NCBI GenBank assembly: GCA_025093555.1
Contig: JAIWNF010000044.1
Location: forward strand, 248,001-312,000
DNA length: 64,000 nt
Direction: 5' to 3'
From: Circinella umbellata
Lineage: Eukaryota > Mucoromycota > Mucoromycetes > Mucorales > Lichtheimiaceae
This document shows positions 6,004 through 34,728 of the stretch, piece after piece. The position numbers and the translations under genes are program-made. The notes under the pieces are model-generated. The model was given only the letters and a program-made list of their open reading frames with translations. It was not told the origin of the DNA and made no database searches. How positions within the stretch are numbered: position 1 is the stretch's first letter; every line of letters starts with the position of its first letter.

Positions 6004-6676
6004 AATATTAAATAAAAATATTATCTTTCAATCTTTGTATGTAAAATAAGTTTTTGTTGTTCTCTTGAATGAATTGATTAAACATTATTCGTACTTAGAT
6101 TTAATTTACTTGCTTGTTCATTCGTTTCTTGAATTGGGAAAATATTGTAATGGTAGTAGTTGAAAAAAAAATTTTGTAGGAGACTAAAGAGTCTTTTTTT
6201 ATTTAATCACACATCGGAATTTGAGGGGTGTAACTAAGTTGTGATTAGGAATTAGAGGAAGAGTAAATGGGGAAAGAATAAAGTAATGCGAAGCTGCACC
6301 GATGGTAGTAGTTGAAAAATAGATCGGGTGTGTAAAAAAGAAACTCCTCTCATTTTTTTTTCACTCTCAAACTAGTGGGATCCTATTGATATCCTTGTAG
6401 CATATTAAATATCAAAAAATTGCTGAAATCCAGTTGATAACCTAATAATATCTAAGACATAAATAGTAGTATCAAACTGTTGAGATCCTATTATACCCCC
6501 TTTTTTTTGCAGTGTAATAATATAAATTTGTATTATAGAATGTTTTTTCATTTAACAAATAGACATAATGGTAAGTTTTAAGAGCTCAAAAATATTACTT
6601 GTAGTATCTTTATAGGGTATGCAAGTTTTGAAGAGAGATAAAATGGTAGTACATATGTAATGATAGCTAATAAATA
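6004..6676. other. Intergenic, AT-rich, up to the pogo terminus
   Basis: No supported gene. It ends at a TA dinucleotide (6675-6676) that is the left target-site copy of the pogo-type element. Confidence 0.6.
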
Positions 6677-7227
6677 CAGTCGAACGCTGCTTTTTGCACA
6701 GGTGGGATTTGGGCCAAGATGCATGCAAAAAGCGGGGGTGTGCAAAAATCGGGGGTGACACAAAGAAGGAAAATAGAATACCCACTAAGCTGTCAACTAT
6801 GACTAATACAGTAAACATAATTAAAAAAAACACTGAATAAAAGCTATTGATATATTGCTCTACTGAGATAATAATGTTCTCTTTAGTCTTCTTTTTTTAA
6901 TAATATCTTCAAAACACAAATCTGAATATCAAAAAGTTCCTGTTAGTTTACAGGAGGATATTGCTAACCATTATTTGGAACTCGAACGTGATGAACAAAA
7001 AAAGACTCCTAGTATTCCTCAATTAATGGCCTGGGCAAAAATTAATTATCAGTTAAAAGAGCCATTTCCTAATAGAACAACTGTTAATCGGTGGATTAGT
7101 ACTAGAAGAAAAGAGTTAGAGACTGGCGTAGATAGGAATAAAAGACAAAAAGCTCAAGCAAAGTTCCCAGTATGTTAATTAAATATTTAAGAATATTACT
7201 TTTGTTATATCAATCAAATATAATAAA

Positions 7228-7550
7228 ATAAAAGAGACGTAAATAAGTCAACGAGACCCAAAAGAACAATAATTGAACTGAAGTTTATTAAAATAAAATA
7301 TTATCTCTATTTATATGAATCTTATTATCAGTGGGATATATTGATATGTGTATACATAAGATTTATATTTGTCATGGCCGTGTGAATTATGAATATAAGA
7401 TTAATGATATTAAGATTAGACTTTGAGTGGTTGACGATATGACATATCTACGCAGCTGTAACCTTATATCATTATAGAAGACGGACTTCTGTGTTCTTAT
7501 AAATCATGGTCCAAATAGGGAAATACACGAAATGTCAGCAAAGCATAATT
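7228..7550. repeat. Dispersed repeat, copy A (in an intron of the pogo transposase)
   Basis: Aligns along its length with 38205-38510. Shared blocks in the same order include CAAAAGAACAA(T/A)TATTGAA, a central ATATTGATATGTGT-like block and AGAAGAC(G/A)GAC(T/C)TCT near the end. The copies are diverged and their exact termini are unclear. Could be a solo LTR or a small non-autonomous element. Confidence 0.5.
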
Positions 7551-8379
7551 AAAGATACGCTATACTTTAATAATTAGAATGACAAATAATTATCTTTATG
7601 AATAATATGTGTTGGATACAACAACTTTATACTTTTTTAAACTTGGAAAATATAATTATTTTCAGATGTATAGCTTTTGGAAGATGCTGTCTATATGTGG
7701 ATTGAGCAACAATGTCATGAAAACATACCAGTTAATTGGGGTTTCATTGAGCAATGTGCAAAAGACTTTGCTCCTTTACTTGGTGTTTTAGAAGGTGAAT
7801 TGGGATTTTCTAATGGATGGGTTGACCGCTTTCGCAAAAGATTCCATTTAGGAGTAAAAAGGCTTCATGGTGAAGGTAGTTCTGCTGATGTTGTATTGGC
7901 AGCAGCAAAGCTACCAGAGATCCAAGAAAAAGTGTCTCAGTATGCCCCTAAAGATGTTTTTAATATGGATGAAACAGCATTATTTGATTGTAGTGCCCCC
8001 AATACTACAATCGCTCCTACATCTTTCAAGGGCATTAAAAATGATAAGTCACGACTTACAGTAGTGGCGACTGTAAATGCATTAGGTCAAAATGTGTGGC
8101 CATTGTAGTTTATTGGAAGAGCTGCTAGGCCTACATGTTTTAAAACAGTAAGAAGCTACATTATTGTTTATTCTTAATTAAAAATGTGTATATTGTAGTA
8201 ACTTTATTTCTAATATACCTTTTTTCAATTTATTAGAATAAAACAGTTGATGTTTCCCATTACAAAGCAAATGCCAATGCTTGGATGACAAAGGCTATTT
8301 TTTTCAAAAGATCTTTGGATATTAGACAAAGCTATGAAGAACCAAAATCGAAACATTTTGCTACCACCGTAAAAAAAAT

Positions 8380-8867
8380 CCTATAAATACTGTTAAATCC
8401 TGTTAAAAGCCCTAATTCACAGGATTTACAGGATTATGAAACTACAATTAAAAGTCCACCACTCAGATAGCCATTGGTCCGAAAAATGAAGTCTAACCCA
8501 TAATAGTATGCTGATATTGACCAATTATAAACCATTTTTAATAATAGTAACATTCATCTCCGTTTTCATTTTGTTGATCAAAAAAAAAAATTATATAGCC
8601 AGTAGTAGTAATAATATTTTTGTTTATATTTTTTTTATTTTATTTCTCTGCTATTATAGTCAAAAAATCATATTATTTAATGTTTATTAATAAAGTAGAT
8701 CTCGATAATAGCAATTGATGATAAAGAGTACTAAAATAGAATGAAAAACAAATAGGCATATTACGAGATACCTACTACAGTATTATTGCAATTTGCCATG
8801 CACCAGTATCACCACTCACAATATATAACATAATAATGATAAAAACGTTACTGTACCTGGATTGTGG
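8380..8867. repeat. CACTA left subterminal region
   Basis: No gene. The first 80 bp hold short AATACTGT/ATCCTGTTA units and CACAGGATTTACAGGATT, which recur in inverted orientation near the right end. Confidence 0.6.
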
Positions 8868-9699
8868 TTACCCACTTTTATCCGTTCTTTGATGGATAAA
8901 CGGGCGATTGTTGTTGTTGGTGGTGGTGGTGGTGGTGATGCTCAAAGAGCTCGAGAGCCATTTGCGAGCAATACTCATAGTTGATGAAGTACTATAAAAA
9001 AAACTCAATTAGTATTTCTTGAAAGCTTATACTGCTATAGTAGAATATAACTATCAAATATATCAAAATACAAATATATACATACCAATGAGTACTCGCA
9101 CTCCCATCACTGTGCACGGAATGCCTAAGATATAAAAAAAAGTTGGAGAAATATCTTGAGTTATTACATGATTATAAACAGGTTGAAGATATAACAAACA
9201 ACATACATTGAAGCATCCTGTGTCAGTACAGGATGTTGGGCCGCAGGGCCATATCTAGAAAGATTATCAGATATTCGAAATTAGCCATCTTTTAAATGTT
9301 ACATTTACAGCTCGTTGTATACTACACTTATACTGTTATATACCTTGTTCCAGGAACTGAGAACTGAGGGATAATCTCCTTCGATTCCTCCGAAGCCACA
9401 GTCCCAACACTTTTCAATAATTAAGTTATAGTTAGTGTTAGAATTATATTTACTTATATTGAAAAAAGAAGGATATGGATATGGATATAGATTACCTTTG
9501 AGCATCATCGGTTCCAACACCTCCGCTATAGTGAAACAAATATGAAAATAAGTATTCAAAAACTTTAACTATAGCTTATAAAGTTACACATTAAACCATG
9601 TTATCTTAGTATCACTAACCTTTTCTTCTTTGATGCATTGCTCCATTTCTGGAGCAACAAGAACCTGGCCATCCAGTTGTTCTCACACTGTTCGATCGG

Positions 9700-10219
9700 G
9701 CATCCACTTATTTCACCCCGGTTGAGTTTGAAATAATTTCAAAGTAGGTGGCTTTTTGAAAAAATGGGGGGTAAAATTTTATATGAGTGGAGTTCTTATA
9801 TAAAAAAAAGAAAAATACCCCTTTTTTCATTTTTTTTTATAATCACCACACATGAATCTAATGAATCAACAGACGACATCAACAAAGCCATTAATAATAT
9901 TACCGAAAAATAAAAAGAGAACTTAGTTCTATACAGCAGATGTTAATGAAAAAAGAAAAAAGACATGGTTAATTAGTAGATTGGCAAAAATAATAGAAAA
10001 AGTATTTTTTTTTATTATAAAAGCAATAATATATAACAAAGACGAACTCATCTCAAGACATCTGCTCAACCATCTTGCTCATTTACTATTCCAAACACGT
10101 ATAAAAAAGTATAGAAAGGTTGGTATAAAAGTTTCGGTGGACTTTAGAAGAAGATGGGGCCTTTTATATAGTTCTCAACTTATAAAAAATAAACACGCGT
10201 TTTTTACTATTACTTTTTT
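9700..10219 (+). repeat. Left long terminal inverted repeat
   Basis: Inverted copy at 25930-26468. The inner end is where ACTATTACTTTTTT stops matching (10219). The Lys/Ile-rich open frame over the inner part is not a gene. Confidence 0.85.
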
Positions 10220-10389
10220 GCTTTGTTATATACTAGTTGGTAGGAGACATGGGAAGTTTCATGGTACACATACTTTATTAATTTGATAAATGGATCTTCA
10301 GTATTATAAAATATAACGGGTGATAAATAATAAAAAAGAAATCTAGTGTATGTGTGATATTTATTATGGGCAATTATTATTAATATCAA

Positions 10390-10485
10390 CCTCTTCCTGC
10401 CTCGCTTCGCTCAGCTAAATGAGCCCCTTCGCTTCGCTTCGGGTCATTTAACGGTATACGGTTTCGCTTCGCCGTGAAGCACAAC
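10390..10485 (-). repeat. Helitron 1 3' hairpin block
   Basis: A GC-rich CGCTTCGCTTCG island in AT-rich DNA. TAAATGA and TCATTTA can pair around it. The equivalents in Helitrons 2 and 3 read TGAATGA/TCATTCA, a compensated base-pair change. Confidence 0.65.
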
Positions 10486-13400
10486 AAATGCTGAAATAGA
10501 ATTTTTGTGACAAAAAGTTGTAAAATAATTTGTGATATGTATATATTTATTATATAGAGAAAAAAAAGAGATCTATGTTAAGAAGATATATCTGCAAAAA
10601 GAGAAGGATATATGAAAAGAAAAATATTGATTATATTGATATGTTTGTAAAAGAAAATTAATTTGGTAGATAGGTGTGATAAGGTGATAATTATGGTGAT
10701 GGAAGTAAGACTTCATGGTAAACAATGTTTACTGTAGTAGGGACATTGGTAGAAGATAATTTGGTTAGGTCAATAGCAATTCGAATGTTGGCAGGGTCAG
10801 TTGCTCGAGAAAGAGCTACATATAATTGACCGTGAACGAATACAGGTTCTTGTAAGCAGATACCAATGTGAGTTAGCGATTGGCCTTGTGACTTGTGAAT
10901 TGTCATAGCAAATGCAGGTCGGACAGGGAATTGACGACGACAAAGGATGAATGGGTGTTCTCCTTCTGTGGTACACATATTGATCCTAGGAATGTAATGC
11001 TCCTCACCATTATGACCAATGTCAATCCTTTTTATAACAATGCTGTGATCTAAAAGTGCTGTTACAAAAACCTTGGTTCCATTACACAGACCTGCATCTG
11101 GGTTAAGATTTCTTAAAAGAATCAATGGCATTCCAACTTTGAGGTTCAGTGCATGTGATGGGATACCACCTGAAGTCAAAGATTGGAGATATTCTGTTGG
11201 ATAACTTGCTGCTGCAACATCTGGATTATCTGCATCAATGATGCGATCAGTAGACAGGTATTGTCTGGTATCACCAGGAAAAAGTTCGAATGCACACTTA
11301 TTAATTTCATCTACATCAGCATTTGTGGAAGCCAAGATAGCACGATTGGAGAAATGTTCTGGCTGAGGGTTAAGGTCACGAATAGTTGGATAGATGGCAT
11401 CGATGAGGGTATTTGTGTCAGTAATGTCAATAAGCCATTCTCGCAGAATTTCGCAGCTTGTTTTGTATGGTGGTCGTCCATCTCCAATAGCAAGAAGTGT
11501 GTTAGCAAAAGCAGTAGCAGCTGGTCCTGCACTACGCACATGCATATTGACTGTTAAGTTTAGTATTTGAACATGGCGCCAGAAAGTAGTAGCACTGATA
11601 CAATTTGCAACAATTTCGGATCGAGTCCCTTTTTTAATAACAGGGAGTAGTTGTCAGAAATCGCCACCAAAAACAACAACTTTTCCACCAAATGGTACAT
11701 TAGCAAGAGCAGAATCAGTAGCACCCATTATATCACATAAGGCTCTGTCAACAACCTGAAAGTTCCATTTACCACACATAACAGCTTCGTCCCAAATAAT
11801 TAAAGATGCCTGTCTTATCAGGTATGCATGAGGACCACCAAGAGGAAGATTGCAAGTAGCAGTTTCATCAGCATCAATTGGTATTTTAAAGCGGCTATGA
11901 GCTGTACGGCCCCCAGGAAGTAATATAGCAGCAATGCCAGAAGAAGCAACAGGTAGTGCAATATGATCTTGGGAGCGAACACGACTCAGCAATGTTTTGA
12001 AAAGCAATGATTTTCCAGTACCTCCAGGACCATTGACAAAAAAGATGTGGGATTGGGCCTAGTCGTCTGGTTCATTGACTGCTTGCATAATTGTATCGAA
12101 TGCATCTCTTTGACCATCATTGAGAGTTGGAAAAAGACTTTCATATATTTGAGTTTGTTCATCACTAACATACTCACTGCGCTCTATTGCTTCTAAAGCA
12201 GTCAGTTGAGGAAGTGCGTCCATTGCTGTTATGATATCTTGTGGCAAAGAAGGAAACTCGGACAAACGGTGGCCCGTATTTTGTAACCTAGTATCAATGT
12301 CACCAAGGGTACGCTGATATATTTGGTTCCATTGATCAGGTACTAATTCAGTCTCATTGTTAGGGAGCTGATAATGCATCTCAAAAAAGTAGTCATCACT
12401 CATTCTTTCATGATGATTATTCCAAAGTCGGTGAGGTTCCAATAGGGAACAATTAGTGAGAATGTAAACAAAAAGCTCACGAAGAGATGCAGCTGAAGGT
12501 ACATGAATAGATGCTTCCACCAGACAGTGATCCCATTCATCATCGGATTCCAACAGCCTATGGGGAAGAGCAGCAGTTTCGAAAGTTTGATAGACAACAT
12601 TATTAAATGTTCTTAATGCCTCAAAACTAACAGGACCACGAACATTGAGAAGCAATAGCCTAAGTGAAAACAACCACATATTTGAATGTGAAGCAAAGTA
12701 AATACGGGAAACAACATTTTGAAAGACTGGATTGGTTCGGGGGTTCCATTGTTGTAGATGCTTGTCATAAGTATAATGGCAAGAAATTTCAGTGTAAAGA
12801 TATTACCGAGCATGCTCATCTCGAGAACACAGATTAAAAAAAGCAGTAAGAGATGTTGTTTCTGCATTATTGCATGCGGCTTGGAGACCGTTAGCTGAAT
12901 CAGTGCTACGAAAAACAACTCTCTGTTCGTCAGGAAGATGCAGTGCTAGTCGAGATACGTATGGATAATGGACATGGACCTGATATTCAAACGTTCGCCA
13001 AATTGCTTCACAGGGACCAATGTAACGTGCGTTTTGAAATTGGGTTACTTCATCAATTAGCTCAGGATCTGTATTATTTGAAACATGTGTTGTATTGAGA
13101 GTAGCATTAGTTGATCTTACTGCTTCAGATTCTCTACTTTGCACCATTTCAATTTGGGCTCTATCAGATCCTTTAGTAAGATATTTGCAGAGATATTTGA
13201 TTGCACGTGAAGAGGTACATATTTCAACATTAATATGTGCATTGTACTTTTGACACAGATATGGGTTATAAGGAATGACGTGGGAGTTATCAGCAATGAA
13301 GTTGGAGCGTTGAAAATGATGACGATTGTGAATATTTTCACGTCTACGGTAAATTGGATAGCCATCTCGACTTACACGCGTTTCTGCCACAAATGGTTTT

Positions 13401-15655
13401 GGATAACCTTGAGAACATTGACCATCTTTCATACAAATAGCATTCGGGTTGAGATTACCACATGGGCCATGTATCATAGAGCTTGTAACTGTGCGATATA
13501 ACTGAGGGTGTGTAGCAGAGTTTGGTAATTCGGCACATACAAATCGGTCATAATCAGCAGGATTGTGAGGTCGATCTTCATGATGTAAAATGAGCAATAT
13601 GTGAACATGGGGTAAGCCACGTTTTTGAAATTCAACAGTTGCAACATATCCAACAACACGACCAAAGCAATTAGATTCTTTGATGTGAGCCATCATCTCA
13701 GTGAGTTTCATATGAAAAACTCGAGAACATATATCAGGCCGATCAAATGCTTGTTGGCCAGGAAGAAGCTCAGATTGTATTTCCGGCCACTGTGGATTGC
13801 ATGTAAAAGTGATGAATAAGGTTGGGTTTCCTCTTTGACGAATAATCGCCAACCCATCCTGAAGCATTTGTTTCATGTATCGTGGACCTCCAGTGAAAGA
13901 TGATGGTAGAATAATAGAGCGACCAATTTGATGTGGATCCACATTATCACCAATGCCATTGTAAAGATCAGCACATAGATCATTCTGATTGTTAGTGATA
14001 TACTGAAGACGTGAAAACTCAATACGTGCATAGTTGTCAACAACGAATTGTTGGAAAAGACGATGAAAGTGATGATGATAGGTTGTATGACTACCATTAC
14101 GAATCATAAGCATATAGGAACAGTACTTGAGCAGCGTAATACTATTAGTTTGATTATCAGCACTTTGACATTGCATTCCAGGAGACCATGCATCATCACC
14201 AAAAGGAAACATAAGAACATAGTGAAGAGGTATATATGATGGATGAAGAGAACTTATAGTACGTAAACCTGACTGACGATCACGGATTACGATTTCATAA
14301 GGCAATGATTCACTATCCACTGTGTTTTCAACAATCATTGCAGCAACCTCAGGATAACTTTGTTGATCATAACGCCTACCCAAATTAGCCGCAGAACGGA
14401 TGACTACTTGAAGTGTTCCAATGGTCTGTCACCATAAGTTTCATGAGCATTCATTAAACCTCGTGCATATGGATTAGATTCCTGCATGACAGTCTGCAAA
14501 ATGGAGATTGTTTCATTACGAAGACCAGAAAATAATGTTTCTCGTCTCGCCAGTTGCTCTGCCTTGTCAGCAAAATATATTTGTGCAAATTTAGGTCTTT
14601 GCTGTTGAGATTGTTGTTGTTGCACTGATGGATCCTCCTGCTCGGCTGGTTGCTCGTCAGCTGCTTGTGATACAGGTGCCTGATTTTCTAATCTCAATGA
14701 TCCAATGTCATGGTACATAGTACCATTGATGCGAAACGTTGACACTCCACCTGATCTATTTGCCAAATCACGATCAAAATTTGCTTGGATAGATGCAAAT
14801 GCAAACATGTTGTTGTGAGCACGAATGTTGGTAAAAAAAGTCGTTGCTTGCCTCATCTTCAGCTGTTAAAAGATTGATGATTTGTTGTGGGTGACAGCGA
14901 GGTATAGGAAGAACAATTTTTCTGTGTGTGCAGCAAATGCTAAAAAGGGGACGGGTTCTTGAAGAAGTTGTAATCCGTTCTTCCATCCACATTTGAGCAT
15001 TACAAAACGTACAAATAGCATCCATACGGGAGAGCTTATGTTGGTGAAAATTCTCTCCTGGTGTATAACAGATGTTTGGACCAATGACATTTGCTGGATC
15101 AAATGGAAGAGTACATGCAAGTTGATATTCTGCTCCGTGATCAGATTCAATATTTGCATCGTTAAAAGGGCACAGTCGAGAAGTTCGTCAAGAATGACTG
15201 GGAGACCCGCAGCTAGTACATGTTTTTATAATTTCAACCTCTAATAATAGCTAGTTAATTGATATGACTTGAAGAAAGCATAAGATGTTTACTTTAGAAG
15301 CATACGTACCAATCGTTTCAGTGGTTTCATTTTGAACAGGTGGTTCTTGATTCTCTGTCGTTTGATTTTCACTTTGATTGCGTGAGTTGTAAGGACAATC
15401 ACGATGGGAAGCCCGCTGATGAGTGTTTGATCCACAGCAAGGGCAAGAACGTCTCTGGCTCGTAGATTCCAAAGGTTGCTCGGGTCCTTCGACAAAGACT
15501 GTTTCCTATATACAGACATACAGTAAAATAAGAACTTAAAATACCATATTCCCACCAACACATCCATACTAACACAAACTGTTACTAAAAATTTTAAGCA
15601 TACATTATTATAGAGTCTACGTCGTACATTACGTTCATTCTAGCGTTCTTCACGG

Positions 15656-15765
15656 ATCGGATCGGATCGGATGATAGGGCTATCCGCATCCGCATCCGCA
15701 AATACGGATGCGGATGCGGATACGGATGGTCGGATGCGGATGCGGATGCGGATGCGGATCGGATG
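15656..15765. repeat. GGATGC subterminal array, left
   Basis: Runs of GGATCG, GCATCC and GGATGC hexamers in both orientations, which could fold back on themselves. A matching array lies at 17,460-17,570. Confidence 0.8.
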
Positions 15766-17459
15766 GGTAGATGAAGTGTGTATGTATATTTTTTTTTGGC
15801 AGAAATACAATCGAAGTAGGAAGAACCGTCGTATTGTAGTGAATCAAAAAAAAGAGTGAAATAATCTATAATAAGTTTTGATTTGGAATGTAAAAAAAGG
15901 TATTGGATATTGTAAAAATTGTTATCGTGATTGATTTGTCTTTTCGTATATAAGTATAATATAGCGCGATTGGTTTAGATTGGTTCAGAATAAATAATGT
16001 ACTTCAAACTGGTTCAAAGAAACAAAATAGAAGCATATTTTAATAAACGATGGCAATTGTAGAAAAGTACATGGTAATTTTTATTATAAATATAAAAATA
16101 AAATAAATTAATCCGTAATGTAAAAGATAATATAGTAGATGAAAGCTTTTTATGAAGAGAAATATAAAAAATAGGGAAAAGAATACTTTTTGTTAAAAAA
16201 AGCTGAAATTTTAAATATAAAGTGCGCGTGCGCGTGAGTATATAGTATGGCTGTGTGTTGAAAAAAAAATTATGTGTGACAGCAAAAAAAAAAAAAGAAA
16301 ACCAAGCTTCTTCAATCAAATCTTCGTTACTCCATTTAACATAGTCATCTTTTTTAATAATGGAAAATAATGATCCCAAATGAAACAACTAAGTGTGGTA
16401 GTCTTTTTTTTTTATTATATTATTTTAATCACTCATCATCGTATCTATTTTACACGCGAACGGACATGTTCAATAACGCCAATAAGCATCTATTAGCTTA
16501 ACGATTACAATATTACATCTTTGCTCCACTAACTATTGTGGATTGAGTTTATAGACAAATATATTCTTTACAACAATCTACTTATTTACCAATGGATTTT
16601 AACAAATATTTTATTTAATCTTGGTCAATAAAACTATCTAATATACACATTGATAACCCTACAAAACAACTAGCATTACTCAATTTTATTATCAAAGCTC
16701 CTTCTTTTTTATATATCCCTATCTTTGACATAATTGCTTTTATATAACTGGACATTGTGCTTGACGATTGGTAAGTGGTACTACTCTTTCTTTTACACAC
16801 ATACTCTTTCTCCGAATTATATTACTATAATGTATTTGTTTACTAATGGTGGTAGTATTTTATTTTATTTTTGTTTGAGTAGATTTTATAACTTATGCAA
16901 ATAATCATTGAAAAAAAAGTGCTGCGGATATGGGTTGATATTACGGTTTATATACTTGGATTTGGATGATGAATATTTGGATGATGAATATTTGGACTGT
17001 ACAAAATAGAGAGAGTATTGGAGTTTATAATTATATTATATATATCACTATGGTAATACAAATATCAAATAAACTATTCTAGATGTCTTCTTCAACAATG
17101 GTTATTTTTTTTATTTGCTATTCTTCGTTTTGGAAAGGGACAAATATTAGTATTATTATGAAATAATATAGGAAATGTTGTGACATAAATAATTTGAGGA
17201 ATAATATGTTATAAGAAATATAATGAATAGGGATCAAGTAATAACATTTCAACATCTTTGGGATTAGATCATTTCCAAAAGTTTAGATCTAAAAAGTTTG
17301 ATGAATCTTCGAGTTGATAAAATAATATTTGTCACATTTATTGACTTGCTACACTTACATTAAAAATGCGGCACACTTTTTCAATCTAATATTTTTATGT
17401 TTTTTTTATAAACACCTATAAAAAAACCCATTACCACTTTCAATCTTTCGGATGACTGC

Positions 17460-17570
17460 ATCATCGGATCGGATGATACACCCATCCGCATCCGCATCCG
17501 CATCCGTAAAGACCCATCCGCATCCGCAAGTTCGGATGCGGATGCGGATCGGATGAGCGGATGTCGGATG
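17460..17570. repeat. GGATGC subterminal array, right
   Basis: Inverted counterpart of the array at 15,656-15,765, inside the right end of the hAT-like element. Confidence 0.8.
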
Positions 17571-18018
17571 AGATGAAGAACGCTAGTTCATTCAAAGGAC
17601 AATCAGAATGAGTTCTACGCAAATGAGAATTTGATCCACAAATACAGATGCGATTATCTTCGTGTTGATTTTGCTATTTAACATGGTTTTTGAGAAAAAA
17701 AATTATCGAGAATAACAGGAAACAATATTTTATCAGTATATTGGTTCCTCTAAGGAGAAATGAAATCTAATCATTGAGATTTACGTACGTTCTGAGCGCT
17801 CATTATTAAATAGTATGACCGTTAAAAAAAAAATTAAAAGTAATGCGAGAGTTGAAGAGATTTAAAATTATTTTGACAGGTGAAGAGACTTGATAATAAT
17901 CAGTAAAGAGCAAATTATTTTCGAGGTACAGTGGCGAAAAAAAAGGAAGGAGATGGTCGGGGTTTTATGAATTACCAAAAGCGTTAATTATAACGACCAT
18001 TTGTCTTTTAATAGTAGA

Positions 18019-18165
18019 CTAGCAGTTTCTGTCTCGCTTCGCTCGACTGAATGAGCCACTTCGCTTCGCTTCGTGTCATTCAACGGGTCCACGTCGCAAG
18101 GGGGGTAAACCCCCCCTTGACCCCCCCATTGGGGGCAAGCCCCCAAACCCCCACTCCATTACACG
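18019..18165 (-). repeat. Helitron 2 3' terminus: CTAG, hairpin block and C-rich palindromes
   Basis: CTAG at the tip, then TGAATGA ... TCATTCA around a CGCTTCGCTTCG core. Next come runs such as AAGGGGGGTAAACCCCCC and GGGGGCAAGCCCCC that can form strong hairpins. CACGTCGCAAGGGG and the C-runs are shared with the block at 23,524-23,650. Confidence 0.75.
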
Positions 18166-18395
18166 CTCAAAGCTGCATTCGAGGAAGTCATACAAATATA
18201 TATTTCTTCTTTTCACCTATCTAGTTAAAAGTATTTCTCTTTTGCTTTACAAAAATACAATTCTACTTATAAAAACTTACCTTATGTAACATACTAAGAA
18301 TGAGATTTATTTAGGAGAGTAATGTTTATGGTTAAGGAAATATATAAAGAGTAAAGAGAGAACAAATAAAAATAGAAAAAGTGATGTAAGAGTGA

Positions 18396-21300
18396 TTAAT
18401 TTGTAGAGATGTAATCGTAAAGCGAAAGTACTTCTGTGTATACAACATTCCTCGTGTATTTACCTTCCTGACCATTAATGGTTGATTCATCACGGTCTAA
18501 TGTAATAAAGATCGAATTTGGTGTTCTTACTCGTGAAAAAGCGACATATAATAACCCATGAGTGAAGACAGGGCTTGGCAAATAAAGACCAATGGTGTCG
18601 AAAGTTTGTCCTTGAGCTTTGTTGATTGTCATTGAAAATGCAAGACGTATTGGGAATTGGGTGCATTGGAATTCAATAGGACACTCACTTTTTTTTGATG
18701 TGATGGTAATGCGAGGCAATAAAACTATTTCACCTATATGTGTGCCAGTGGCAATTTGAGCTTCAATAACATTTCGACGAAAAGATATACAAATTAGACG
18801 TGTTCCATTACAGAGGCCTTGTGAAGTATTAAGATTACGTAAAAGCATGACAGGACATCCTGGTTTGAGTTTTAGTGTATGTGGGGGAAGACCAGATGGA
18901 GAAAGAGAATTTAAAATTTCGGTTGGATATGACAGAGATTCTTCTGGATCAACCATGCTATCAGCACTTAAATATTCCTCAGTTGTTCTGGGAAATTTTG
19001 ATTCTAAAATGGTTTCGTTAATTGTTGCTACGTCAACATTTTTTGGTGTGAGGATAGCTCGTGACATTAGAAATTTGCGAGAAGGAATAGTAGAGAGCAT
19101 ATCACCATATATTGTGTCAATCAGAGTTAAAAGGTTGTATCCAGGCATTAACATGGAATTACGAAGCTTAATACGATCCTCAGTTTCTGGAGCAATTTGC
19201 TCTCTGTTTTCACCTATTCGTAATAAATACTCTGCAAATTCTCGTAGCTGTTCAGAGTTGTGAGTGTTGTTTGCTTGCTGGACACGCATATTAGTTTGAA
19301 GACGACATACTTGCGTATGACGCCATATACTTGATCTTTTCAAACTTTGAGCAACAATTTGTGCGCGTGATGCATTGGGAATAACAGGTAAAACCTAAGA
19401 GAAATATTGAAAATAAAATTAGGTATAACAATATAATAGATATTATCAACCTAACTTTAAATGCTAATTAACTTATTATACCTGACGAAAGTCACCGCCG
19501 AAAACAATTAGTTTTCCACCAAAAGGTACGTGTTCTAAGGCAGGGTCTACAGATTTCATCAAATCCTGCATACTGCGATTACCACATTCAATAAGATCCT
19601 TACTGATCATTGAAGCTTCATCCCATATAATTAAAGTCATTAATTTTAAAAGCTGTGCTGTGGCAGATCGCGGAGTAAATGAACAAAATGATGTGTGATC
19701 AAGGTCAAGAGGAATCTTAAATAAAGAGTGAGCAGTTCTACCACCTTCCATTAAAAGTGCAGCAGTACCACTGGTTGCGACAGCAAGAGCAATGTCACCT
19801 TGACGTCTGACACGATCAAGAAGAGCATTAAATATATAAGTTTTTCCTGTGCCACCAGGACCATCAACAAAGTAAACTTTAGGCTCAGTATTTGGACGTT
19901 CTAAAGCATTGCATACATTGTCGAATACATTTTGTTGATCATTGTTAAAATTGAGCACTGGTGCGGGATGAAGATTTAATCTTTCAGCAATGTCGCGTTG
20001 TTGACGAATAAGAAAAGGTTCAGCTGGTTGTTGATTGTTATCATTTTGTTGGGTTCTATCAGGAAGAGTGAAACCATCGAATTCCGTGAGTGATCGTGAT
20101 GTAGTTGCCATGATAGATTCAATTGCAAGTAGTGCTTGGCCATATACATGATCGGATTCTGGTAGAGATTGATCATTTGCTTCATTTCTTGCAGTATGTA
20201 AAAAATCTTCAGAAAGATTTGAACGATAAGCCATCCATAAAGCATATGGATCTTCTGGAGTGCAATAAGTTAGGATGACAGAGAAGAGCTGTCTTAGAGC
20301 AGCAGGAAGCTGGTACGATGATGCTTGTTCTAAGCAATCTTCCCATTCTTGCTGTCCAGTAAGTAGTCCGCGCCTTCTTGCAGCAGCTTGAAATGATGGC
20401 ATGAGCTCATTTTCAACCGTTTTAAGTTCATCAAAGGACGTTGCTCCAGGAACATGATACAATAGTAATCTGAGATGATATTTTTCTACTTGACTTGGAG
20501 AAACAGCATACATACGTCCAATAGTAGCACCATGACCTCGTTCATGAATTTTCCAATGACGATCAGATTTTACAAAAACATAATTCTCTGGAAAGTCAGG
20601 ATACAGTACGTGCCGACCATCCTCATTTTCGATGTTGTAATTAAACCAAGCTGTTAAAGTTGTTTCATGTACACGATCAGCAACAGTTCCTGGATCATCT
20701 TGTTCATTGAAATATGCCAGCTGTTCATCTTCAAGGTGTATAGCTAAGCGTTGGTGGTTTGGAAATTCCTTATGTAAAGAGAATGAGAAGAGACGCCAGC
20801 AGCCTTCGCATGCAGAAACATATCTTGCATCAAGATATGTTTTAATTTCATTAATAGATGGATCGGCTTGTTCGTTTGCTGTACTTTGAGCATTTGATTG
20901 TCGCTGATTCTGAGATACCACCACTGCTGCACGATCATGACCCTTATACACATACTTATAAACATACTCGATGGAAGCAATCGAAGTACATATTTCTACA
21001 TTAATGTGAGCATCATATTTGGTACACAAATATATATTGTGAGGTACTACCCATCGATTATCCATCCGAACACTATTTTTATGGACATGATCGTTGTTGT
21101 TTCTACGTCGCCTATAAATGGGATACCCGTTTTCGCTCATACTTGTTTCATCTGAAAACTGCTTTGAAAAACGTTTTGAACATGCACCACCTTGCATACA
21201 TGGTGATCGAGAATTAAGGTCTCCGCAAGGCCCATGCATCATTAACCTTTCTACTGTTGCACGTGCAGCTGGATATTGATCAGCATTGGGAAGTTCGGCT

Positions 21301-23361
21301 GATACAATGTCGTCAACATGTTCAGGTGTTCGTGGTTTATCACTTTGTGCAAGGATGAGTAAAATATGCGCATGTGGAAGACCACGCTTTTGAAATTCCA
21401 CAGTATGTACGTGTCCAATCACTTTACCAAGAACCATGCTTTTTGTAAGATCATGCATTAATGCTTTGAGTTTCATTTTAAACACACGCACACATATATC
21501 AGGTCGCTCTGCTGCTGTCTGTCCTGGGAGAAGGGAATCTTGGATCTCATGCCATCTGGGATTTGTGGTCATGGTAACAAATATATCTGGTTTTCCAAAG
21601 CGTCGTACAATACTCATGGCGTCCTGATAAAGTTGTTTCATATGACGTGGACCTCCAATAAAAGATGATGGCAGTATAACTCGCTTACCAACATTAGCCA
21701 TATCATTATCACCAAGATCGACAGCATCTGCAACACTTTTATACAAATCTGAACGTAGTTTGTCCTGATTGCTCCTGATATAATTAAGACGCTCAGACTC
21801 CACCTTGGCATACATGTCTGTAATATACTGCTGAAACAGCTTACCAAAGCGATGCAAATCATTCGGTTCTTCATTGTTATCATTATTGCTATGTATCATC
21901 AAACGGTATTTATACCAATCCATGCTTGTTACGCGACTGCCATCAATACACTGTGCTCCAATGTTCTAACCCTCGTCACCTAAATATTATATTTGTTAAT
22001 AAGCAGATATCCTTAACTTTATACTAAGCATAATAATAATATGGTAAATGACCATTTAAGCTACCTTGTGGAAACATCAACACATAGTGCATGGCATCAT
22101 AGAAGCGATGATTAACTGATATCCGTTGCATTTGATTTGATCGAGTTTGCACTATAATATCACGATCTCCACTCTGACCTTCGTGACCACCATCCACAAT
22201 TAATAGCCCAACCTCGTCTCCTGTTGGTCTATTGTAGCGTTGTTGATCCGGTGTACCTTCTGCGTGAATTACCAATGTAACATCACTTACATCTTCATCT
22301 CTCAACCGGGTAGCCATATTATTGAAAGCTTGAGCAAATGGGCAGATACGATGCATTAATGTTTGTAATGTGTTTAAGACCTCCATGTCGATTGAGGCAT
22401 TAGTATGATTGTGACGTATTTCCAATTGTCTCTCCATGGATGGATCATGAACATAGATTTGTGCAAAAGCTGGTGTATCTTGATCCGTGTTTGGGAGCAA
22501 AGAACCAATCAGATGATACACCTCACCATGGATACGGAAATTATAAGCACCACCACGCGAATTTGCAACGGTGTGATCGATACTGGCACCAAGTGACGCG
22601 AAGCTCAATGCATTGTTATACGCACGAATATTAGAACGGAAATTCTTTGACGCAGTATCATTACCACGTAGTAGCTGAGCTATTTCTGCTGGAGTAGGAC
22701 TCAATGGTGAAAGACTGATAGAGCCTTTGTTACAGCATAAGTGGAACTCAGGTATCCTATTAGATGAACTTCCCACACGTTCCAAAACCCACATATGTGC
22801 CTGGCAATGGCTGCACTGACGATCCATTAATCCAAGTGAATGACGTTCAGGGATATGATTTAAGGAAACAGGTCCAAGAACGATGGGGGCCTATTAAAAT
22901 AAAGATTTTTTAAGTAAAAACAAAAAACGAAAACATAATATAAGATGAAAAGGTTTCTTTTAAAAAAAAAGTCTGTTATTACTACTTGAGGTTCCATTAC
23001 AACGGTAGCTTCCAAATTTGCAGGGTTATTTGCAGGGTTAGCTGCACATTGACGCGACGTTCTTCATGAATGGCCAATTTGGCCACAACTTGGACATTGA
23101 GGTTCTGACTATTACCATTATGGATCAAGAATTAGAAATTGCATTCTTTCTCCTCTCTCTATCCCAACTAATAGTACTTACGATTTGCTGTTGCAAAGAA
23201 CTACCGTTATTACTTGAATGGTTTCTTTGTTCCTGATCATTCACAAAAATGATTTCATTCTCGGTACGAATGCTTAATCGAGCTGGATTCATCAAGCAAT
23301 CTCGGTGAGTTCTACGGGAATGTCCGGGCTGATGGCATGAAGGGCAAATTGGAGTGCTCAT
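18396..23361 (-). pseudogene. Helitron 2 Rep/PIF1-like helicase gene (1,542 codons, two nonsense codons)
   Basis: Exons 23361-23182, 23108-22986, 22890-22065, 21979-19482 and 19394-18396 sum to 4,626 nt with every phase matching. Order in the protein: CCHC knuckle (CPSCHQPGHSRRTHRDC), second knuckle (CPSCGQIGHS then TGA), Helitron N domain (YVLMFPQG), HUH Rep nuclease (KRGLPHAHILLIL; Tyr pair in IEYVYKYVYKG), and SF1 helicase with Walker A GPGGTGKT, Walker B LIIWDEASM, FGGDFRQ, INKAQGQTFD and LYVAFSRV. Length is normal for a Helitron transposase. Only TGA at 23064-23066 and TAG at 21966-21968 interrupt it, and both can be explained by one C-to-T change (CGA, TGG). The start is the first ATG, 162 bp from the 5' terminus. 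Confidence 0.88.
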
Positions 23362-23523
23362 TTTATAAATATATTGCAGGTTGTAAAATAAAATTGTAAA
23401 AAAACGTTAAGGAAAAAGCTTTATTATTATGAATATTAATTATACAGGTCGGTGTTGTTAAGCTGAGTCTAAGAATTTCCTTTTTTAGGTTTTATAAAAA
23501 TCTAAACTTTTTAGTAGTATAGA

Positions 23524-25000
23524 CTAGCGTTTGCCTGCCTCGCTTTGCTTCAGCTGAATGAGCCCCTACGCTTCGCTTCGGGTCATTCAACGGAAAACAC
23601 GTCGCAAGGGGGTAAGCCCCCCTTGAACCCCCAAAAAGGCGCTTCGCGCCTGGTAGTGACGATGCCCAAGGCTGTATAGTTGTTTTGTGGATCCAGTCAA
23701 ATAAAGAAATAGAGTGTGATAGTATAGCAATAAGATGTCTTTACAGTTGAATAATGACATTTTATTAAACGAAAAGCAAAAAAATTAAATAATATTAATG
23801 CTATGACTGTATAATTTACTACTATGGTAATAATATGGTGAGAATTACGTACTTTAGTTTTGTAATAATTACTGTCTTTGATAGATAAAAAAAAATTAAA
23901 AGGGAGTGGGTTATTATTTATCGATCAGAGAGTATAATATTATTTACTGACACATTAACAGGTTGTTCAAGAAATTTCTGGAATTTAATAAAAAAGGAAC
24001 AAAATATATAAAAGTTAATAAAAGTAGGGTTGGTCTTATCGAATTTTTACAAAAGTACGTAAGGGTCATTGTTGAAAGAAACATTAATAACTTAAGATAA
24101 TGGATTCAATGTGTAAAAAATCATTATGAAAATGAAGGAGAAGGTGGAAGAGAAGAGGGAGGGAATATTTCATGATAGTCAATACGTATGTTTGTAATAA
24201 GGCGATAAGCTTGCCTATCCTAATTAGCGATTATAAACAAATCTCTGTAATCTGTAACGCGTCAAAAGGCAATATATAGCTGATCATGCGAAAACATCTG
24301 ATCAGGAAGATATGCATAAACATGTGTTAATGGTTAACCTTGCGATTAGTTTATACTAACAAAAAGCAAGTTTAGGTGGAAATTATTCTCGAGATACTTC
24401 ACGCAGTAACCCAGAAGATTGTGAAGAGCTGATAAGCTTAATTCGTGGTAGATGGACACGATTTCCAACATAAATTTTACCTGTCTCGGCTAGTATGAAG
24501 TGTGAATCCAGTTTCCTGAAAATTACTTTTGTTTTGTTACAAAGACCTTGTGCTGGATTCAAGAATAACAGGTCGGTAGAATTTTGGATGAAGTTAATGG
24601 GGTGGAAATACTATCAAATTTAAACAAAATATAAAAGAAAAGCGGCTATGCTGAATAAATAACTTGTAATAATTATTTAATATAACAGAAACGTAGCAGA
24701 TTAACTTGTAAATATTTGCATTAATTGCGGAAGCTGTCTTTTCTTTTTAGCAGATATGTGTGTTAGCTATGTAAAATAGACATTATAGTGGTTAAAAACT
24801 CGGCAGAAATTTGATTACGTAGTATGTCCTTCAGTAGGATTTGTATCTGCACCCAAATATTCATGACATTTAACCTGGAAATAAGTCATTGGCGGCACCA
24901 TTAATAAATTCGACCATAGCAGTTTTTGCTTAAATATTGTTCTTCAGCAAAATATTTCAGATTAACTGTTATATTGCTATTCCTTTAAATTTTGAGTTTA
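23524..25000 (-). mobile_element. Helitron 3, decayed (minus strand)
   Basis: The 3' end is CTAG at 23527-23524, followed inward by the same hairpin and C-rich block as Helitron 2. A decayed helicase gene lies at 24,170-24,930. The 5' end was not found, so the right boundary is a minimum estimate. Confidence 0.6.
24170..24930 (-). pseudogene. Decayed Helitron helicase C-terminus
   Basis: In scattered frames the minus strand still reads recognisable helicase pieces: EFINGAANDLFPG, NPAQGLCNKTKVIFRKLDS, NRVHLPRIKLISSS, MFSHDQLYIAF followed by TGA in place of Ser, then RVTDYRDLFIIAN followed by TAG. These match the order in Helitrons 1 and 2 (pG, GLCNGT, LPRI, LYVAFSR). There are many stops and frameshifts, and the Rep half is not visible. 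Confidence 0.7.
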
Positions 25001-25929
25001 TGTTTTATCCTCTCATATAGCAACGTTGCCGATCAAGAACAAAATATAGTCCGAAGCTACGGAGTGAAACTTATTATGGATCCGATGTCCAATGATGATA
25101 TAGAATATGATAGTTGGGGAAAAGACTTTTTACTATGATAAAAAAACTACAAATATGAATGTGGAGTGACACATGTAATAGAGTTTTGCAAAAAAATAAA
25201 AATATAACCAAAGACAAACATTGCCTTTCGATTGATGGTAAAATCATTACAATTTCCATAGTAGCAATAGGTCGAAACAAAAACCCTTTCCGCAGACAAC
25301 TTTTTTATATTAATTTCCAGCAACCAATGTTTTTATATCGGAATAGCTGACAATTATCTTTAAAATACAGTGAGCAAATGAAAAGCAAAAAAATAGGAAT
25401 TCAAAGGCAGACTATCTTACAAAAAAGGAAATTTTAACGTTCAACTATCTTAATATACTAGTTTTTGGATAATAACTGGTGTTATTTTTTTTATTCTTAT
25501 GTATATGCATTATTACCCTGTATATCATTATCACGAACATGGATACTATTTCATTATATTGACCATCAACACCATCAATTATATTTTACTATTATGATCC
25601 AACATAACGATTAACACAACCAGTTATTTTTTTTGTCATCCAACAAAACGAATAATACAACCAGTTGTTTTTTTATTATCATCCAACGTAATAATGAACA
25701 CAACCACTTATTTTTTTTATTATCATCCAACATAACGATTAACACGGTCAATTTTTTTTTTATTATTCAACATAATGATCAGCACGATCAGTTTTTTTTA
25801 TTATCATTCAACATAACGATTAATACATACCATCAGTTATTTTTTATTATTATTGTAGTATTCAATAGACGATTGAAGTGATGTAGTAGTGGATCAAATA
25901 TTTTGTTAAGAGTACTTATATAGAAAAGT
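25000..25929. other. Non-coding stretch inside the long-TIR element
   Basis: No supported gene. Contains the tandem repeat at about 25,592-25,850. Confidence 0.55.
25592..25850. repeat. Imperfect tandem repeat, ~50-bp unit, 5-6 copies
   Basis: Units start with CATCCAACATAACGATTAAC and end in a T-run with TTATTATCATC. They are diverged in the middle (CACAACCAGTTA, CACGATCAGTT). Repeated Asn/His/Phe-rich peptides in the open frame come from this repeat, not from a gene. Confidence 0.7.
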
Positions 25930-26468
25930 AAAAAAGTAATAGTAAAAAACGCGTGTTTATTTTTTATAAGTTGAAAACTATAATAATAAAAAAAAACTAT
26001 ATAAAAGGCCCCATCTTCTTCTAAAGTCCACCGAAACTTTTATACCAACCTTTCTATACTTTTTTATACGTGTTTGGAATAGTAAATGAGCAAGATGGTT
26101 GAACAGATGTCTTGAGATGAGTTCGTCTTTGTTATATATTATTGCTTTTATAATAAAAAAAATACTTTTTCTATTATTTTTGCCAATCTACTAATTAACC
26201 ATGTCTTTTTTCTTTTTTCATTAACATCTGCTGTATAGAACTAAGTTCTCTTTTTATTTTTCGGTAATATTATTAATGGCTTTGTTGATGTCGTCTGTTG
26301 ATTCATTAGATTCGTGTCTGATGATTATAAAAAAAAATGAAAAAAGGGGTATTTTTCTTTTTTTTATATAAGAACTCCATTCATATAAAATTTTACTCCC
26401 CATTTTTTTCAAAAAGCCACCTACTCTGAAATTATTTCAAACTCAACCAGGGTGAAATAAGTGGATGC
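25930..26468 (-). repeat. Right long terminal inverted repeat
   Basis: Inverted copy of 9700-10219, with small indels and substitutions, ending in GTGGATGC at 26468. Confidence 0.85.
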
Positions 26469-28795: not shown

Positions 28796-28821
28796 TATAT
28801 ATATATATATATATATATATT
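28796..28821. repeat. (TA)n microsatellite in a tnp2 intron
   Basis: About 13 TA units between donor 28781 and acceptor 28859. Confidence 0.9.
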
Positions 28822-29826
28822 TAAAATAACACGTACTAAAAACACATTTTCAATTAAAGGTATAAAAATGAAAATATGATTCAAGTCTGTGTATTGCCAG
28901 TCAAGCCAAAATCGATGGATAATTTCCTAGAACCTCTATTTATTGAACTACGCAAACTCCAAACAGCCGGTCTAGAAGTTAGATGTGGTGCCTGTGTGTT
29001 TCGGTTAAATGTTCACTTAATGCTCACGAGCGGTGATATAGTTGCCGTTCAAGAGCTCATTCATCATTCATACCGAGCCCTATATGGATGCCGGATATGC
29101 CCTATCAAGACTGTGAAGGCATTAAGTCCCAAAGGTGTTGGTAATGGGAATTACTTCTCAGGCTTGCGTAATAATGTTCAACAATTTCGTGACATTATGC
29201 ATTACACAGGTGGCGCTCCAGTAAGTGATTGTTAACCATGAAGTGAATCAAATGCACTTACTGTACATATTATAATATAGGAATTTTCGATAAAAAAGAA
29301 AACAAAATTCGCAGAATTGGAGAGTTTCCACGGGGCGTCGTTTTTCGGTTTAGATGAAATGCACTTGATTGGGACCAATGTGTCAAAGCATATCTGGGAA
29401 ATGGTTAGTGGATCATTCAAAAATACCACCACAATGTTTGAATTAAGCAATGCAGCAAGGCAAGTGATTGGAAGTTCTGTTGAAACATCGACCAGTACCA
29501 TCCCTTCGTCTATCTTTGAAGGTGACTTTAGAAGTAAGTTGGAAGATTAACATATGTAATGTACATAACTACGACTTACTCAATATATAATAGATTACCA
29601 TACAAAGCCTGGTAACATGAGAGCGGTCGATTGGATGTGTTTCTTAATGTTTGTGGTCCCTACTATGGTATGTGACATGTTGGAATTACAACTTGGGACG
29701 GAAGCAGAAGATGTCATTGATGAATTAGCTTCCCTGGTAACAGGGTGTGCTATTGCATTATCTTAGCGGATAACTGAAGAAGACATCATAAAGATGGAAA
29801 GGTATGAGATCTTATTAGAATAACTA

Positions 29827-29843
29827 CATATATATATATACTG

Positions 29844-29875
<32 letters not shown>

Positions 29876-29876
29876 T
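29827..29876. repeat. (TA)n microsatellite in a tnp2 intron
   Basis: TA units with one CTG interruption, just upstream of the 29904 exon. Confidence 0.9.
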
Positions 29877-31012
29877 ATGAGTTTAATATGATATCAATTG
29901 ATAGATGAATGTAGCTCCTTTATTAAATGGCATCAACATATGCATGACGTGGTCCCAACAAATATGTATTCGTCAAATATGCATTACCTACAGCATATAC
30001 TGGAGATGGTTAGGTTGCTTGGACCACTTCATAGTTTCAGTGCACGATCCATAGAACGTGCTATTGGTAAGTCAAATGTCTCGATATTTTAAATTGTATA
30101 TTCACAAAATTCTACTAAAACATTGGAGGACTATTTTTAGGATTCTTAAAGAAGCGCATTAAGTCACAAAAGAATCCAGGTGTCAATGCTGGTAATATAC
30201 TTCGTCGCCAGCAAGCTTGTAGATACTACAGCTCACTTTTAGAAGATAGACAGGTGCCACATGAAAACATGGATAATACTCGACCAACAGCAGCTTATTC
30301 ATTAGAAATCATAGATGAAGAATCCAGTGGCCCTCTTTCTGACGATGTAGAACTGTGGGATCATTTTGAACGCAAAGTTGATGATTATAGTGACGTTAAT
30401 CTGAGACACTACTTGGTTAAGTTCTGGCGACGAAAATTCCCAGATGATAGAGTTGGATGGAATTCTATTAATGACAGCATTATTGTAGGCAGACGGCTTT
30501 ATATGAATGAAGTGGTGTATGATGCGATGAAAACGAAGAGGAAGACAGATAAATTGTGCCATTTTGTGAAAATGGATATAAAGGTGGATCGAAAAAAAGC
30601 TCGTCGCAATGCTCCGTAGGATATGCAAATACAATCATATTTTGGAGAAGCAATCATATACTTCGCACATGAATATAATGGTAATACGAAAAGATTCACT
30701 GGTAGGTTAAACATTGCAAAATTTAACAATTTAAACTCATTGGTAGGTGAAAAGCATATTGTATGCTTAATAGATATTTTGAATGGCGTGGAGCTCAATG
30801 GTGTGGGTTGCCCGTATGGTCCGTATGGTATAGGTCATACTGGTGGTAAACGTTATGTTGTTGAAGCAGAAGCAATCACATGTCATGCTGGTATTTTAAA
30901 GATGCCGATGACTACCTCAATAATAACCAAAAATACAACATATCGCAACTACTACATTTATCCAAAAATGATTCCTAAATCTACAATAGCTGGTGACATT
31001 GGATTATTGTAG

Positions 31013-31779
31013 AGAAAAAAACCAGAAAGCTGCCAAACATCCTGTCAAACTATTATTACTAATATTCAATTTATTTTATGCAGTTTCTTTTTATTATATT
31101 CATTTTCATATCTCTTCTTTTCACATCTATATTTTATCTCTCCAAATCATGTTTCTCTTTTTCTTCCTCATTATTTTTTATATCTCTTACTTTCTTCATA
31201 GCTCAAAGCATGAACCTAACGATAGTTACTATATGCATCTCTCATAAGTTCAAACGCAAGTTCAATAACTCAATTAACATTATATTAGAAGTTTCAAACA
31301 GTATTTTTTATTTTATATTTTTTAGAGCTCAATATATTTTTATAGCTATATTCATCCTTCTAATTCGCCATTCCTTTCGGTTGGTATTTTTTTTACGTTT
31401 ACATATTATAACAGTTTTCCTGATACAAATGCCAATTGAGCTTTTTTCAAAAAATAAAGACGTGTTACAATAGTAAATCAGATATTATGATTTTACATGA
31501 TGACTTTACAAAATTTTACAGTATTTATATTTTTTTGCTCAAATTTTACAGTACAGTATTTTGTTGCCCTGCTTTTCATATGGTACAGTTTACAGGCTTT
31601 TTACAGGATTTAACAGTATTTACAGTATTTTGCTGACCCGCTTCTCAAATAGATACAGTTTACAGGATTTTTACAGGATTTAACAGTATTTACAGTATCT
31701 ACAGTATTTTGCTGTCCCGCTTCTCAAATAGGTATAGTCTACAGTATTTTACAAAATTTTCGGTATTTTTTTTACGGTG
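31013..31779. repeat. CACTA right subterminal repeat region
   Basis: The first 450 bp are AT-rich without a gene. From about 31,500 there are several copies of TTTACAGTATTT, TTTACAGGATTT and CCCGCTTCTCAAATAG. Such clustered short repeats next to the termini are usual in CACTA elements and are presumed transposase-binding sites. Confidence 0.7.
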
Positions 31780-33007
31780 TACCTCTTGATAATTTCTCGA
31801 GCCATTTTCTAGAAAAGTATGAGCCAACTAATGTTGAGCTTCTTTATTTGCCTCCAAATACTACATCTATCATGCAACCATTAGATGCCGGTATTATTAG
31901 AAGCTTTGAGGTTCATTTTAAGTGCGTTTTTATTCCATTTATTTTTAAAAAAAACATGTAATAGTATATAATTTTCTTACATAATCTTTATTATTTTAGG
32001 AATCGACAGTATGAGCATGCTTATGACTCTGTGAAGAAGCAACTGGCTGCTAAAAAGCGTCCATCGAATGCGAATATGTATCGCATTACAGTTGTTACAA
32101 CTATTGACTGGGCCCATGGTGCTTGGAATAAGGTTTTAAGGGGCAACACCATTATTAATTGTTTTGAAAAAACAAAAATAATAAATAATGGTAATAATAA
32201 CAGTACGCGTAGTGGATTAGATCCAAATGAACAAGTGGCATTAGATCAAATTAATGATCATTTACATCTTATGTATAAGAATGAACTTGATCCTAATTAT
32301 ACCTTTGATCCTAATCCAGCTGAGGAAATTGCTATGGTTTATCCAAAGCTTTCCGATGATAATATTATAGCTGCCGTACTTGAAGATAAGCTTGACTTGC
32401 CTTTAGTTGCTACAGAAAGCGATGAATCTATTGCTATTCCAGAAATTGAACCTGAACCTATTATCTCTTCGAGAGAAATTAGAAAGAATAGAAAAGGTCA
32501 TAAGTATTTTAGATGAGGTTGAACATTTAACTGTCAAGGATGAGCTTCGAAAAATACGAGATGAATTATGTAGAAAAAATCAAGTGAACCAGTCTTTAGT
32601 GACTTCTTACTTTAAAAACTCAACCTAAATTATTTATTAATAACCATGCAAAATCTGACTATAAAAATACTTTAATATTACTGGTTTTACTCTATCTCAG
32701 GCCGGGACATATAAAAGTGGGATTTTGCACAGGTCCCTTTTAGGCGTGCAAAGTGCAAAAAGTGGGGCTTGTGCAATTTTATTAAGTAAAAAGTGGAATT
32801 TAGGCTGAGAGGTGTGCAAAAAGCAGGAGTGCAAAAAGCAGGAGTGCAAAAAGCAGGGTTCGACTGTACATGTGTCTCTTTTTTCTGCTATTCATCAATT
32901 TGTGTTAATACGTTAGAGAGGCTACAATTATAAACACGACATTAGCCATCACTTCTCGACGCCACACTTATTTGGCTAAATAGCCAAAGACGACAACTTC
33001 CGTCACT

Positions 33008-34595: not shown

Positions 34596-34728
34596 TTGTT
34601 TCATGTTGTTTTATTCACCCCCAAAAAGAATCGGTTCTCATCACAAAAAGAATGCAAACTGCATGAAAATGCTATGCTTAATAAGGCAATTGTTTATGGT
34701 GCCTGTGTTTATATAAACAAATCCCAAT

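Follow-up and report, generated by a model that had tools for sequence, protein, structure and literature searches.

How did transposons come to be stacked inside one another in a single stretch of fungal DNA, and how did three Helitrons within that stack come to lie head to tail without a single base between them? We addressed these questions for a 64,000-nucleotide stretch of Circinella umbellata DNA (GenBank assembly GCA_025093555.1, contig JAIWNF010000044.1, positions 248,001 to 312,000), hereafter the window, by searching the fungus's own genome (50.8 Mb in 210 contigs) for other copies of the elements. The window lies in contig C150; L denotes fetched loci and C denotes contigs of the same genome. 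The transposon nest is real, and every level that a sequence-only reading had named was confirmed from these copies. The order given by that reading, from the outside inward a pogo-like element, a CACTA-like element, an element with long terminal inverted repeats (TIRs), a Helitron and a hAT-like element, is demonstrated by the exact duplications and by an empty copy for each junction. The matching termini and exact duplications that it described (TA for pogo, TAC for the CACTA-like element, 10 bp for the long-TIR element and 8 bp for the hAT-like element) could be read directly. Although all the named levels are present, the nest is six levels deep rather than five, with nine inserted elements stacked; a solo long terminal repeat (LTR), an outer repeat and a probable non-LTR insert had not been listed, and the number of Helitrons, which is three, had not been stated. 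We are confident that the locus represents nine insertions in repeat-rich DNA, with the Helitron HelB and then HelC added at the 5' side of HelA (Table 1).

Boundaries, empty sites and head-to-tail joints were all observed directly, and the sequence of events is best explained as follows. The outer repeat received the probable non-LTR element and pogo, and pogo received the solo LTR and the CACTA-like element. The CACTA-like element received the long-TIR element, which is MULE-like, and this in turn HelA; HelA received the hAT-like element, and HelB and then HelC would have joined at the 5' side.

The pogo-like element, with termini CAGTCGAAC...GTTCGACTG in TA, shows the TA duplication and short inverted ends of its class. 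Its copy L015, in contig C173, matches window positions 6673-7202, 7624-8364 and 31780-32868, successive matches overlapping by 5 and 3 bases; this copy has neither the 421-bp insert nor the CACTA-like element and retains a single copy of each target. The ends of pogo are the same elsewhere, both of them in L015 and the right one in L017. As the sequence-only reading had claimed, the frame is continuous over the insertion point after removal of the inserted element, both at the pogo/CACTA joint and at the joint between HelA and the hAT-like element. The stretch LLLLDNF at the former joint is presumably of the DDE transposase type; a DDE match in Pfam was absent in the two pieces tested. The 421-bp insert is the solo LTR, with termini TGTTATATC...GATACAACA, and among the 40 of 326 candidates scored it recurs at 35 places at 97-99%. 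An exact 5-bp duplication flanks 9 of the 20 copies fetched, and one more copy matches at 4/5 bases. Some copies lie 5.5-7.4 kb apart on the same strand, as expected for the two LTRs of a full element. Several of the copies without a duplication share a common TTACCCCCC flank and resemble one LTR of a full element, and for this reason no duplication is expected at them.

The next element inward has termini CACCGTAAA...TTTACGGTG and the 3-bp duplication (TAC) that characterizes EnSpm/CACTA transposons. Because its termini read CACCG instead of CACTA or CACTG, and because its Transposase_21 match (22.5 bits) is below the curated cut-off of 28.6, we call it CACTA-like only. Its right end recurs at the same base in C152, and its left end recurs in L016, a relative without the long-TIR insert whose pieces are 74-86% identical to the window and which has one ten-base target, with two bases differing. 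A frame also crosses the CACTA/long-TIR joint, but on the plus strand of the window a stop follows nine codons past the joint, and the alternative open minus frame carries a stop in L016.

The long-TIR element, with termini GCATCCACTT...AAGTGGATGC and duplication GTTCGATCGG, combines TIRs of about 530 bp with a duplication in the 8-11-bp range, as expected of a MULE. Its ends are shared by 16 further copies, 1.7-2.0 kb long, and in 13 of them 9 or 10 bases of the duplication match (7/10 in L018; none in L020 and L031). A fixed 10-bp duplication for the family therefore had to be corrected: it is 9 bp in most copies and 10 bp in the window. In the element's own sequence (9700-10385 and 25471-26468) no open reading frame of 120 aa was found, and the element is apparently non-autonomous. 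None of the 16 copies (L018-L033) contains the Helitrons, the BLAST match jumping from about 10386 to 25469, and the six uninterrupted copies displayed fix the Helitron block at 10386-25469 within one A|T pair.

At the innermost level, the hAT-like element (termini TAGCGTTCTTCA...TGAAGAACGCTA, duplication GTTCATTC) shows the 8-bp duplication and short inverted ends of hAT transposons; its interior holds two open reading frames only, of 124-126 aa. Many near-full copies were seen among the 40 of 117 candidates scored; 20 were fetched, 19 of these have both ends, and 12 of the 19 have an exact 8-base duplication. A HelA copy in C41 (L114) has a single GTTCATTC at the hAT site, and a frame encoding a zinc-finger-like stretch crosses this position in both the window and L114.

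The sequence-only reading had proposed that copies ending at other positions would count against its boundaries. The ends agree for pogo, the CACTA-like element, the long-TIR element, the hAT-like element, the LTR and the Helitrons, although the exact duplication is absent in 2/16 long-TIR copies, 7/19 two-ended hAT-like copies and 11/20 LTR copies. The region is rich in repeats, which could lead one to suspect that some level of the nest was produced by misassembly. This is unlikely because the interrupted elements have uninterrupted copies elsewhere in the genome and are flanked by exact duplications; misjoins are not expected to yield exact 3-, 5-, 8- and 10-bp duplications at termini common to other copies. 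The exact duplications and the empty copies led us to set misassembly aside, with a residual chance that we consider minute.

Other loci show the same families in different arrangements. At L025 (C73:9900-15000), a HelA copy contains a member of the long-TIR family, flanked by a 9-10-base duplication; this nesting is the reverse of that in the window, and thus the long-TIR family and HelA have moved into each other. L018 (C166:4500-14000) is a second pogo nest, where both a long-TIR element and sequence like window 3109-4820 lie inside a pogo relative. The edge of this window repeat near 3109 is met again at two separate positions in the pogo copies L016 and L018 (next to 7010 and 32154), and for this reason the repeat is probably another mobile element.

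The Helitron block consists of three elements on the minus strand, which abut head to tail with zero spacer and together fill one A|T site. Copies elsewhere end at the joints: HelA ends were found in L095-L097 (the 5' end in L095 and L097), both HelB ends in L100-L107 and both HelC ends in L108-L113. Contigs C1, C152, C2, C165 and C136 hold copies of HelC. A reading as a single large element was set aside on the copies that end at 18018/18019 and 23523/23524. The elements show the 5' TC, the A|T insertion and the lack of a duplication typical of Helitrons, and both HelA and HelB carry Rep and PIF1-type helicase domains. The HelA-type 3' end reads TTGA before T, not CTRR, in 15/15 copies (L075-L089), and the A|T target is kept. 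A hairpin about 30 nt from the 3' end is predicted in all three elements, with folding no better than that of shuffled sequences (z -0.03, -0.86 and 0.30). The open frame of HelB is 93% identical to a Circinella minor protein, and Mucor species are the next named fungi among the best 120 of 3896 matches.

Table 1. Positions of the nested elements and their targets in the window, listed from left to right.
Feature	Position	Strand	Ends and supporting observations
Outer repeat, left remnant (unclassified, holds pogo)	6515..6674	+	5/5 copies (L090-L094) continue directly into 34416
Pogo-like element	6677-32866; TA duplication 6675-6676/32867-32868	+	25-bp inverted ends; HTH_Tnp_Tc5, E 2.6e-13
Solo LTR inside pogo	7203-7623, 421 bp (7198..7628 with duplication)	+	TG...CA; 5-bp duplication ACTTT; empty site in L015
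CACTA-like element inside pogo	8365-31779; TAC duplication 8362-8364/31780-31782	+	Inverted ends; empty sites L015, L018
Long-TIR, MULE-like element inside CACTA-like element	9700-26468; 10-bp duplication 9690-9699/26469-26478	.	TIRs 9700-10232/25917-26468, 94%
A|T target of long-TIR element	A10385 and T25470	.	On either side of the block of three Helitrons; TTATTAATATAATAACTGG in the six uninterrupted copies displayed
HelA, Helitron	10386-18018	-	5' A|TC at 18018, 3' TTGA|T at 10386; Rep and PIF1-type helicase frames
hAT-like element inside HelA	15641-17585; 8-bp duplication 15633-15640/17586-17593	.	Empty site in HelA copy L114
HelB, Helitron abutting HelA 5' end	18019-23523	-	5' TC at 23523, 3' CTAG at 18019; Helitron_like_N and PIF1
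HelC, ~1.95-kb Helitron abutting HelB 5' end	23524-25469	-	5' TC at 25469, 3' CTAG at 23524
Probable non-LTR retrotransposon insert, adjoins pogo	32880-34415 (32867..34428 with flanks)	+	Absent from five outer-repeat copies
Outer repeat, right remnant	34416..34747	+	Piecewise matches in L090-L094

Joints of this kind recur in the genome. A pattern for the HelB/HelC-type 3' end gave 29 matches (none with the reversed control), to which the two mismatching ends of the window do not belong. The first flanking base is T in all 29 (27 distinct flanks), and it is followed by C in 17/29, or 15/27 distinct. Seven of the 29 ends (C2, C79, C152, C156, C165, C179 and C210), or 5/27 distinct flanks, exactly abut a Helitron 5' pattern, and near variants read by eye (C155, C87 and C127) bring the count to 10/29. 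Random landing at A|T would produce about 0.0001 such pairs, and chance adjacency was set aside on this comparison. The joints are also visible from the other side. Three 5' patterns in which the preceding base could be only A or G matched 33, 14 and 13 times (60 in total; reversed controls 3, 0 and 0), and G precedes 11, 3 and 0 of them. A Helitron 3' end lies in front of 13 of these 14 G-preceded 5' ends, including the two in the window; among the G-preceded cases, the 3' end in C189 is without its last bases and that in C124 reads TTAG. The families that meet vary by locus (HelC with HelB, HelC with HelA type, HelB with HelA, and HelC with a fourth 5' type). The HelC-HelB pairs of the window and C210 are 5.9% apart in HelC and 11.3% apart in HelB, and because the two halves differ in distance, these pairs did not spread as a single unit.

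Entry of a newcomer between the A and the T of a resident A|TC would give a product that reads A, newcomer, resident TC. Only this position keeps the A|T rule and gives CTAG-TC without a spacer, and we infer that newcomers land in the A|T where a resident Helitron has its 5' border and that HelB and HelC each did so. The same final joint would result from entry at the resident's 3' border (CTAG|T), which would make HelC the oldest of the three and which is among the possibilities raised for a pair of maize Helitrons in the section of PMC2267711 on that pair. Such entry needs G|T targets precisely at Helitron 3' ends, whereas with the patterns described above A precedes 13/13 HelC-type and 33/47 HelA- and HelB-type 5' ends; moreover, HelC has few private changes. 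We consider entry at the 3' border very improbable.

A second alternative is that the three Helitrons came as one composite, which started at the HelC 5' end, read through two 3' ends and terminated only at that of HelA, so that the array moved in one step. The exact occupation of a single A|T site by the block and the presence of HelC-HelB joints at more than one locus are in line with it, and PMC4067079, in its passage on Helitron arrays, explains those of Myotis and Bombyx by a bypassed termination signal. However, the pairings differ between loci, the halves of the window and C210 pairs differ in distance, and the joints had to form beforehand even if the block moved as one, which makes this origin rather unlikely, albeit less so than entry at the 3' border.

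For successive entry at the 5' border, a nick is the likely cause. The transposase would initiate transposition by nicking A|TC, and such a nick, left at the 5' border of the resident, might receive an incoming circle. For Helraiser, the relevant part of PMC4778049 reports that CTAG and TC are joined in the circles, that the targets are A|T and that the site of 5' cleavage has an AT-rich stretch close to it. We tentatively suggest, giving the idea somewhat less than even weight, that through this nick the resident 5' border is a preferred landing site at which circles of related families enter, so that arrays grow 5'-ward one element at a time.

Relative ages were estimated from substitutions private to the window copy, counted on gap-free columns only, with some copies including flanks. 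For the long-TIR element, the hAT-like element and the LTR, 4-5 of the fetched copies were chosen; three were used for pogo and HelB, and four for HelC. The private counts are 24/1452 for pogo, 2/407 for the LTR, 34/1679 for the MULE-like element, 10/1881 for HelC and 2/1886 for the hAT-like element, the innermost elements carrying the fewest. The count for HelA (5/1302) is unreliable, its relatives L148 and L149 having aligned poorly; three-point arithmetic on the distances among the window, L147 and L025 gives about 1.0%.

Several points weigh against the order and mechanism proposed here. Among the seven exact joints, those in C2, C79 and C156 have a flank in common, so that their independence is doubtful, and the G-preceded 5' end in C68 does not follow a Helitron. 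The relative order of the three Helitrons is derived from the A|T rule. Base composition may explain part of the excess of joints, since Helraiser favours sites with AT-rich DNA 3' of the insertion point (PMC4778049, in its treatment of target sites) and Helitron 5' ends in this genome are AT-rich. The MULE-like element exceeds the enclosing pogo in private changes; we take its figure as an upper bound because the sampled relatives are a recent burst. The values for HelA (about 1.0%) and HelC (about 0.5%) are not firmly different. The three relatives sampled for HelB lie 6.6-6.8% away from it, a distance that gives no age; the estimates cover pogo, the LTR, the MULE-like element, HelA, HelC and the hAT-like element. 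The ages thus fit the nesting only roughly, and it is the duplications and empty sites that carry the case.

Abutting Helitrons have been described before. The section of PMC2267711 on maize r1 reports two adjacent Helitrons, different elements with CTAG joined directly to TC, for which consecutive insertions were invoked, insertion at GT was considered and the order was left open. That case is one pair, whereas here three elements lie in a row, the pattern recurs and an order that keeps A|T can be proposed. The same section cites an argument from work on bats by which independent insertions should be left with an A between them; where entry is at the 5' border, the argument fails. Perfect head-to-tail joints are also known from Myotis bats, as cited in PMC2267711 and PMC4067079, where tandem repeats or bypassed termination were invoked; here the partners belong to different families. 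The Drosophila report (PMC4067079) mentions distantly related Helitrons directly adjoining each other in bat and maize, and adjacency as such is therefore not new. Among fungi, the portion of PMC5148889 on tandem elements describes three tandem copies in Metarhizium acridum, with two rounds of insertion into a 5' end as one of two explanations, and in Fusarium a FoHeli4 element 2 bp upstream of the 5' end of another. The Fusarium elements have non-canonical Helitron2-like ends, in contrast to the TC...CTAG ends of HelB and HelC in A|T. Searches of an open-access library on Circinella and on Helitrons in Mucorales yielded no account of the locus. The locus is a well-preserved case of the abutting Helitrons known from maize and bats, and it adds one mechanistic lead.

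The nest itself is an ordinary kind of locus. Nested transposons are familiar from maize and other repeat-rich genomes, where stacked insertions are ordered by which element interrupts which; the same stacking logic applies here, but DNA transposons and Helitrons, rather than LTR elements, dominate. The value of the locus lies in the Helitron joints and in the checkability of each step: the order in which several transposon families inserted can be checked internally in a single early-diverging fungus, and for most families of the nest both termini and empty sites are in hand. The Helitron joints matter more, as the published accounts, in the parts cited above, are split among rolling-circle repeats, bypassed termination and insertion of unclear order, possibly at GT. 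Insertion at a resident 5' A|TC border would account for the joint while leaving the A|T rule intact, and it is testable.

Outside pogo, sequence 6515-6674 joins 34416 directly in all five fetched copies of the outer repeat, and pogo therefore lies inside another, unclassified repeat. The insert at 32880-34415 is flanked by a near-perfect 13-bp duplication, TACAT(G/A)TGTCTCT, in TACATGTGTCTCT and TACATATGTCTCT, and the empty outer-repeat copies carry a single TACATATGTCTCT. Four of its reading frames were searched against Pfam with no match; together with the 13-base duplication, this suggests a non-LTR element. The left flank of the outer repeat is also repetitive, window 6000-6501 having two more copies at 94% identity in C171 and C41. 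On the right, a gag/protease-like LTR-retrotransposon frame (34717-36003; gag-asp_proteas 27.3 bits, cut-off 28.2) starts within the outer-repeat remnant. Farther downstream, an open frame at 49099-50601 matches a leucine-rich repeat (LRR_6, E 8.9e-6).

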